Positions 49,710-50,410 of a stretch of DNA of 58,722 nucleotides are shown piece after piece. The position numbers and the translations under genes are program-made. The notes beneath the pieces were generated by a model that saw only the letters and a list, made by a program, of their open reading frames with translations, was not told the origin of the DNA and ran no database searches. How positions within the stretch are numbered: the first letter of the stretch is position 1; the number at the start of each line of letters is the position of its first letter. This stretch comes from Sporolactobacillus vineae DSM 21990 = SL153 (GTDB lineage: Bacteria; Bacillota; Bacilli; Bacillales; Sporolactobacillaceae), in assembly GCF_000377985.1 (NCBI RefSeq), contig NZ_KB899050.1, forward strand, positions 1 through 58,722, in the 5' to 3' direction.

Positions 49710-50201
49710 ATGCATGGCGAAGATGAACGTTATATGGCGCTGGCAATTGACGAGGCAGCCAAAGCTCGGGCGATCGGTGAGGTGCCGATCGGTGCTGTGA
49801 TCGTCAGGGAAGGCGCGGTGATTGCGCAGGCTTACAACCAGCGTGAAACCTTGCAGGAGCCCACGGCACATGCCGAACTGTCTGCCCTTCGTGAGGCAGG
49901 CCGGAAACTTGGTACGTGGCGCCTGACGGGCTGCACGCTCTATGTCACACTGGAGCCGTGCCCGATGTGTGCGGGTGCCGTCGTGCTGTCACGCATTGAC
50001 CGGCTGGTTTTCGGAGCACCGGATCCAAAAGCCGGCTGCGCCGGGACGCTGATGAATCTGGTTCAGGACAGCAGGTTTAATCATCAGGCTGAAGTCGCCG
50101 GTAATGTGCTTGGGGAGCAGTGCGGGGCGCTGCTCACGGACTTTTTCAGTAATCTGAGAAGGGAAAAAAGAGGCCGGGCCAATGACCGGCCGGAAATTTG
50201 A
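49710..50201 (+). CDS. tadA: tRNA-specific adenosine deaminase TadA
   Basis: Zinc enzyme that deaminates A34 of tRNA-Arg(ACG) to inosine. The 163 residues contain the catalytic TAHAELSAL and the zinc ligands [10 protein letters not shown]. The start is the ATG at 49710 after AAGGGGGTG. It lies at the position of yaaJ in Bacillus, but the next gene is trpEG instead of the SRP RNA. The trpEG -35 overlaps its stop. Confidence 0.95.
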
Positions 50202-50226
50202 ATTTTTGGCCGTCTCACGTTATGAT
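50198..50226 (+). promoter_or_regulatory. trpEG promoter
   Basis: TTGAAT (50198-50203), 17-nt spacer, TATGAT (50221-50226). The start would be near 50233, just before the first GAG triplet of the leader, leaving a leader of about 180 nt. Confidence 0.75.
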
Positions 50227-50239
50227 GAGAATACTTTAT

Positions 50240-50305
50240 GAGCATGAGCATAAGTTGAGTTAAGTTTGAGCCGAGTATAGAAGAGCAGAGCTGAGTTGAG
50301 TTGAG
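50240..50305 (+). promoter_or_regulatory. TRAP-type (MtrB) binding repeats in the trpEG leader
   Basis: Thirteen NAG triplets lie in phase. GAG or TAG start at 50240, 50246, 50257, 50268, 50273, 50278, 50283, 50288, 50293, 50298 and 50303: eleven in total. Two AAG at 50252 and 50262 fill the remaining places. Every spacer is 2 or 3 nt. The 11-subunit TRAP protein binds 11 (G/U)AG repeats with this spacing in B. subtilis trp RNA. The gene for TRAP is not in the window. Confidence 0.85.
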
Positions 50306-50323
50306 TAACATAGCAGAATGACC

Positions 50324-50345
50324 GGCTTTCCGAAAGCCTTCTTTT
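50324..50345 (+). terminator. short leader terminator (attenuator) before trpEG
   Basis: GGCTTT/AAAGCC stem (50324-50329 with 50333-50338), 3-nt loop, then TTCTTTT. Bases 50268-50273 (GAGCCG), inside the repeats, could pair with 50323-50328 and prevent the stem, which is the logic of TRAP attenuation. That alternative stem is short and unproven. Confidence 0.65.
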
Positions 50346-50377
50346 CTGCACATCCATTCATACAGTTTGTCGCTCTT

Positions 50378-50399
50378 CTGTATAAAAATTTTTATACAG
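50378..50399 (+). repeat. 22-bp perfect palindrome beside the trpEG ribosome site
   Basis: CTGTATAAAAA (50378-50388) is followed directly by its exact complement TTTTTATACAG (50389-50399). The GGGGG of the ribosome site begins at the last base. It may be a protein operator, or a hairpin affecting translation. Confidence 0.7.
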
Positions 50400-50410
50400 G
50401 GGGTCCTCTT

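Follow-up and report, generated by a model that had tools for sequence, protein, structure and literature searches.

A TRAP-type leader ahead of a separate fused trpEG gene in Sporolactobacillus vineae, most likely acting on translation

The analysed stretch of 58,722 nt from Sporolactobacillus vineae DSM 21990 = SL153 (hereafter, the window) carries trpEG, a gene for a fused anthranilate synthase, together with its promoter and leader (Table 1). The product matches two profiles of anthranilate synthase fusions above their cut-offs, NF010081 with 997 bits and TIGR01815 with 918 bits, and is the sole candidate for this enzyme in the genome, the second of its two PF00425 proteins being an isochorismate synthase. 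The coding sequence begins with the ATG at 50411; an earlier in-frame start at 50318 was discarded, since no ribosome site could be seen there by eye. The promoter, which the first-pass annotation had called good, has nine of the twelve consensus letters, and a search of the leader found one where 0.4 were expected in shuffles. The same hexamers, 16-18 nt apart, stand in seven of the twelve rows of an alignment of 11 leaders of the genus plus that of Terrilactibacillus, a count in which the rows of G014 and G006 are clipped at this place, yet the hexamers are visible in their leaders. The ribosome site marked by the same annotation was likewise recovered, as GGGGG ahead of the start codon. No Rfam family covers this leader. 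A T-box was rejected for it because RF00230 gave no match at gathering score, and a ribosome-mediated attenuator with a leader peptide of Trp codons because TGG is absent from 50227-50410. Elsewhere in the window, on the forward strand, lie a T-box leader at 41750-41974 (97 bits), the only one within it, and a cspA-type leader at 44516-44908 (89 bits); 3' of trpEG, at 52831-54267, there is an amino-acid/polyamine antiporter-like gene, for which none of the NCBIfam models listed was matched at its cut-off.

Table 1 Features of the trpEG leader in the window and associated features elsewhere in the genome
Feature	Position	Strand	Basis or remark
Promoter TTGAAT-17-TATGAT	50198..50226	+	9/12 consensus letters
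TRAP-type array, 13 in-phase NAG (11 G/TAG, 2 AAG), 2-3 nt spacers	50240..50305	+	sequence, shuffles
Array core AGAAGAGCA, pairing with the arm	50279..50287	+	identical in 11/11 genus genomes of the same gene lineage
Possible antiterminator strand AGAGCTG, pairing with 50323-50329 in the nascent transcript	50287..50293	+	not conserved as a switch
Weak terminator-like hairpin GGCTTTccgAAAGCC (50324-50338) with U-rich tail TTCTTTTCT (50339-50347)	50324..50347	+	6 bp, -4.7 kcal/mol
Arm CGCTCTTCT, able to pair with the array core and, from 50374, with the Shine-Dalgarno side	50371..50379	+	complementarity, alignment
Shine-Dalgarno-sequestering hairpin, 13 bp, UCUUCUGUAUAAA[aauu]UUUAUACAGGGGG	50374..50403	+	fold, relatives
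Shine-Dalgarno GGGGG	50399..50403	+	sequence
trpEG, fused anthranilate synthase, 729 aa	50411..52600	+	profile matches
Second TRAP-type array, accompanied by a strong terminator-like hairpin and a separate Shine-Dalgarno hairpin	G000:C3, L023 about 3100-3330	-	before trpDCFBA
mtrB (TRAP, His at 58)	L023 7510-7740	-	profile match

The triplet array was confirmed exactly as it had been claimed, that is, 13 NAG in phase with spacers of 2-3 nt. Its longest strict chain of G/TAG counts eight, and dinucleotide shuffles matched it in 0 of 1000 cases, both for eight G/TAG and for 13 NAG. About 9-11 (G/U)AG or NAG triplets with spacers of 2-3 nt were taken as the mark of a TRAP leader, and the window has 13 NAG. 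It is extremely improbable that such an array is a product of chance or a functionless GAG microsatellite, even though a GAGTT tandem tract exists in the genus and the reversed pattern is as common or nearly so genome-wide: with one mismatch allowed, there were 8 array-like matches to the true pattern vs 13 to the reversed control, and a second genome-wide scan gave 30 vs 22. What speaks against such an origin is where the exact runs of five G/TAG lie, since 15 of the 17 distinct places at which they occur (in 9 of the 15 genus genomes) precede trpEG or trpD, and how the arrays vary, their spacers differing while triplets and phase are maintained. The GAGTT tract itself (L137 1479-1527, G009:C22) lies behind a transporter-permease-like ORF and is probably a microsatellite.

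The first-pass annotation had advised looking for mtrB and rtpA. The former is present in a single copy (125 bits, cut-off 21.3), whose product matches 15 solved sequences, all of them TRAP/MtrB. In a set of relatives comprising 98 genomes, the own genome included, 92 carry mtrB, among them all 15 of the genus; G008 and G013 retain it, though the genus search found neither a trpEG-level match nor trpD in these two. The search for rtpA ended otherwise, with no match at cut-off in the own genome and no anti-TRAP above cut-off in any of the 15 genus genomes, while 3 of the 98 genomes pass, G018 among them. The only anti-TRAP match in the own genome (21.8 bits, cut-off 32) lies inside a 388-aa frame that, judged by its length, may be DnaJ. 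A GTP cyclohydrolase gene adjoins mtrB, and 3' of mtrB there are matches to heptaprenyl diphosphate synthase subunit 1, UbiE methyltransferase, polyprenyl synthetase, NDK and CheR. The CheR-type gene is followed by trpD, trpC, trpF, trpB and trpA, forming a trpDCFBA operon without trpE, and the whole order from mtrB to trpA corresponds to that of B. subtilis minus trpE and the aro genes. Ahead of trpD stands a second array, with 7 GAG within about 36 nt, which means that trpEG is not alone in having one; the earlier description of a stand-alone trpEG is accurate for the gene itself, but this second array lies elsewhere in the genome. Upstream of the trpD array we also noted a stem-loop, GGTCGGACAGTGTCACAGGACATTGTCGGCC, with similar ones seen by eye in other genomes of the genus, which is reminiscent of the stem-loop at the 5' end of the trp leader in B. 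subtilis.

trpEG of the window type occurs in 22 of the 98 genomes, the own one included. Within the genus, 11 genomes carry the lineage of the window and two (G004 and G007) another one. Alignment of the relatives' trpEG leaders, a further check that had been proposed, showed that 11/11 genus genomes of this lineage keep the array, which also recurs in other families belonging to the class. At p<=0.01 by at least one of three uncorrected measures, arrays were detected in 19 of 20 trpEG leaders (the exception being G032) and in 19 of 20 trpD leaders (the exception being G022). The 20 trpEG leaders come from the 22 genomes less G004 and G007, which have a T-box, and G018, whose gene is broken and which was replaced by L021; the latter belongs to Terrilactibacillus sp. 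S3-3, a member of the same family as the window organism and of class Bacilli per NCBI, and G018 was taken to be the same genome, with mtrB at the same places. The 20 trpD leaders are those left from 24 when G023, G021, G015 and G032, lying directly behind coding sequence, were omitted. In an even sample of the class, TIGR01815 was found at E<=1e-200 in 16 of 398 genomes, 14 of them outside the genus. All 14 possess mtrB; among the 13 of their leaders that were scored, 12 show an array at p<=0.01 and G210 reaches only 0.018, while G415 was judged by eye. The first-pass annotation had named three findings that would speak against its proposal; for two of them, a genome lacking mtrB and repeats lost in relatives, the opposite was found, as mtrB is present and the arrays are conserved.

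In a midpoint-rooted tree of trpEG proteins (35 rows, L021 being left out for want of a single frame), the 11 genus sequences form a clade with support 100/99 and G004 and G007 fall outside it, which suggests that in these two the gene and its leader were replaced together. Their trpEG genes are preceded by a T-box (RF00230; 110.9 bits in G004 and 122.8 bits in G007), which stands in place of the array at 3722-3963 on the reverse strand (L037, L038) and has a specifier that looks like UGG by eye. In the same tree, under the same midpoint root, three Legionella and two f86 sequences (L014, L016, L018, L159, L160) form a group (94/95) that lies in among the remaining rows. The array of the f86 genomes G331 and G415 overlaps the trpEG start codon, as judged by eye. 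Yet another arrangement was observed in G014, where a T-box is directly followed by an array of five G/TAG (L131 1197-1523); a transposase-like ORF, recognized by eye, lies just 3' of both, and the target gene may be displaced.

The TRAP protein of the genus has a peculiarity of its own. Residue numbers were transferred by eye from the B. subtilis sequence. The RNA-contact residues are given as F32, E36, K37, D39, K56 and R58 (PMC3184956), R58 being named in two sources (PMC7430163, PMC3184956). Five of the six are kept in the genus, and R58 is replaced by His in 15/15 genomes, the residue being Arg in all 24 other TRAPs aligned, in a comparison that leaves aside G015, G331, G415, G169 and the broken copy of L021. 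AAG and CAG account for 40 of 123 in-phase triplets of trpEG arrays in the genus vs 32 of 144 outside it, and for 14 of 88 vs 2 of 44 in trpD arrays, each contrast setting one clade against the rest and being confounded by descent. It is a speculative and rather doubtful idea that the His-58 TRAP reads a relaxed triplet (NAG, with A or C allowed in first position) and that the trpEG arrays of the genus have co-evolved with it, becoming longer, more regular in phase and furnished with AAG and CAG.

The leader parts as first listed omitted the arm and the Shine-Dalgarno hairpin at 50371-50403. Besides pairing with the array core, the arm, offset by three letters, runs on as the 5' strand of the 13-bp hairpin that takes up the Shine-Dalgarno sequence. 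The arm reads [TC]GCTCTTCT in 10 of the 11 genus genomes of the lineage, and both the array-arm helix and the hairpin helix are nearly invariant within the genus. Pairwise identity among the 11 genus leaders is 0.79 for the array core, 0.88 for the arm with the Shine-Dalgarno hairpin and 0.46 for the terminator stretch, these segments having been picked after the alignment of the 11 and Terrilactibacillus had been seen. In the window, CTGTATAAAAATTTTTATACAG makes a perfect inverted repeat, and this palindrome ahead of the ribosome site might be read as the operator of a DNA-binding repressor. We hold this to be very improbable and discarded it, because the pairing extends beyond the palindrome into the Shine-Dalgarno letters via G-U pairs, because the RNA pairs are kept through G-U changes in the relatives G010 and G001, and because the stems in other families are unrelated by eye.

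Folding gave mixed support for two alternative states of the RNA, equilibrium folding being a weak tool for a switch that acts during transcription. The minimum-energy fold of the whole leader contains the array-arm helix, its overall stability being unremarkable (z -1.29, 19/200 shuffles as good), and the leader without its array forms the Shine-Dalgarno hairpin (z -2.74, 2/200 shuffles as good). On blocking of the array, pairing of the outer, Shine-Dalgarno part of the hairpin went up in 10 of the 11 genus genomes (from 0.00 to 0.49 in the window); in the free state, the array-arm helix had a probability of at least 0.4 in 9 of the 11 (0.64 in the window), and the inner part of the window's hairpin was present in both states (0.84 free, 0.96 blocked). 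In G001 the change ran opposite to expectation, from 0.84 to 0.40, and little change was seen in G020, G025 and Terrilactibacillus. The Shine-Dalgarno letters of the window are predicted to be mostly paired either way (unpaired 0.08 free, 0.06 blocked), as they can pair with the gene start. For the wider set, the trpEG leader of G016 was left out of the hairpin, terminator and accessibility tests because no hairpin was called there, which left 19 trpEG leaders. For the Shine-Dalgarno letters, a rise of more than 0.3 was seen in 7 of these and in none of the 20 trpD leaders; the mean unpaired fraction was 0.30 with the array free, 0.08 with it blocked and 0.17 with spacer-shuffled arrays for trpEG, and 0.11, 0.06 and 0.07, respectively, for trpD.

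The match between array and arm was also assessed by shuffling and by exchange. The longest array-arm run was exceptional against spacer shuffles with fixed KAG (p<=0.05) in 4 of 19 trpEG leaders, the window included, and in 6 of 20 trpD leaders. When arms were swapped among 14 trpEG leaders, hand-chosen from 32 as one per genus or family and without f86, whose array overlaps the start, arrays and arms of the same leader paired better than exchanged ones: with row and column effects removed, the observed sum was reached by 2 of 20000 permutations (11 of 20000 without the strongest member) and by none of 100 controls with shuffled arms or 100 with shuffled spacers. Of the 14 arrays, 4 ranked their own arm first and 12 placed it within the better half, the other 2 putting it at ranks 9 and 10, below the middle. 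The corresponding test for trpD, with G020, G025 and G022 set aside and 7 of 17 leaders used, was not significant (1091/20000), and the trpD hairpin barely switched in equilibrium folds. Matched changes do occur in the trpD leaders of the genus, where GAAUGAGC in the array goes with GCUCAUUC in the arm in 11 of 13 genomes and AGUGAGUGA goes with UCACUCACU in G001 and G009; the register of the latter pairing is ambiguous because the array segment repeats there every 4 nt.

The first-pass annotation had read the leader as a complete attenuator with a short intrinsic terminator. A hairpin followed by a U-rich tail is indeed found where it had been seen (p=0.02 in 300 shuffles), but it is weak, its tail is interrupted by C, and it is not conserved, terminator-like hairpins reaching p<0.05 in just 2 of the 11 genus trpEG leaders. 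Folding with and without the repeats masked, as had been advised, left the terminator unchanged in the full-length leader (0.93 with the array free and 0.93 with it blocked). A switch appears only in transcripts that end 4-8 nt past the terminator, in which its probability is 0.03-0.11 with a free array vs 0.99 with a blocked one, because AGAGCTG pairs with the 5' half of the terminator. This switch was equalled by 18 of 40 spacer-shuffled arrays and was clear in 3 of 9 trpEG leaders (G000, G003 and G005) and predicted in 1 of 11 trpD leaders (G016), all 20 having been hand-chosen for possessing a hairpin. The reading as a complete attenuator is supported in part only; its terminator lies in the least conserved stretch of the leader. 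In B. subtilis, termination by TRAP has been reported at a weak terminator and even where no intact one exists (PMC7430163, PMC3913778, PMC11255114), and this, together with the existence of the hairpin and its behaviour in the short transcript, would favor control mainly by transcription attenuation, with TRAP on the array preventing the antiterminator (50287-50293 with 50323-50329) and the hairpin stopping the polymerase. Given the weakness of the hairpin, its lack of conservation and the rarity and poor specificity of the switch, we regard this as unlikely.

Another possibility, modelled on the trp leader of B. subtilis, is that attenuation and translational control act jointly and contribute about equally. 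Both sets of elements occur in the window, and strong hairpins of terminator type are present in the trpD leaders, 13 of 20 reaching p<=0.01. Ahead of trpEG, however, conservation is limited to the translational element, and we judge equal sharing to be quite unlikely. An additional contribution of attenuation in the window species may nevertheless exist.

In our judgement, the leader of trpEG is probably a switch under TRAP control that acts mainly on the translation of trpEG; this is the output that is conserved, in the form of a hairpin sequestering the Shine-Dalgarno sequence. From the array, mtrB, the hairpin, the complementarities and their conservation, all obtained by computation, we infer TRAP binding, its dependence on tryptophan and the direction and size of the effect in the following terms. 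When tryptophan is scarce, TRAP would be off the array and the array core would pair with the arm at 50371-50379; an arm so held cannot close on the Shine-Dalgarno sequence, which would stay open and let trpEG be translated. When tryptophan is ample, the TRAP ring would occupy the array and release the arm, which would then fold onto 50391-50403 and hide the ribosome site, so that translation of trpEG would fall. In the window species, pairing of the array with the 5' half of the weak terminator is a further option, and TRAP may there cause some early termination.

TRAP is a textbook case of regulation, and what is known of it comes mostly from the six-gene Bacillus trp operon. Besides terminating the trp transcript, the B. 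subtilis protein acts in two ways: it refolds the trpE leader so that the Shine-Dalgarno sequence is hidden, and at trpG, trpP and ycbK it covers the ribosome site directly (PMC11255114, PMC4347634). Like the trpEDCFBA leader, the leader of the window has a (G/U)AG array for an 11-subunit ring, a Shine-Dalgarno hairpin formed upon TRAP binding (here a prediction) and a terminator nearby (PMC11255114, PMC7430163, PMC4347634). In contrast to it, the target is here a separate fused trpEG, trpDCFBA having an array of its own; the terminator of trpEG is weak and unconserved, no anti-TRAP exceeds the cut-off and TRAP carries His58. With the trpG, trpP and ycbK sites, the window shares a single target and a putative action of TRAP at the level of translation (PMC11255114); unlike them, its array ends 93 nt before the Shine-Dalgarno sequence and would act, if at all, via refolding. 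By analogy, the leader most likely works as the translational part of the B. subtilis trpE leader does, on another gene. The trpEG genes of G331 and G415 appear by eye to follow the direct-overlap design, as in the direct-block type of B. subtilis, and the T-box that precedes trpEG in the congeners G004 and G007 is absent from the window's trpEG leader. In a literature search with few subscription journals covered, no description of TRAP control of a trpEG fusion was found among the matches listed.

Taken together, the leader is a real one of TRAP type, which would place a separate fused trpEG under TRAP control, most likely by way of translation. The pathway is split in this organism, with the fused anthranilate synthase sitting apart, and TRAP appears to follow it via a separate leader. 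With its His at position 58, the natural TRAP of the genus lends itself to testing directly how rigid the triplet rule is. Related bacteria seem to put the same gene family under refolding, direct overlap with the start, a T-box and possibly attenuation, and this variety of trpEG arrangements would constitute a natural series for studying the adaptation of a single RNA-binding protein to new targets.
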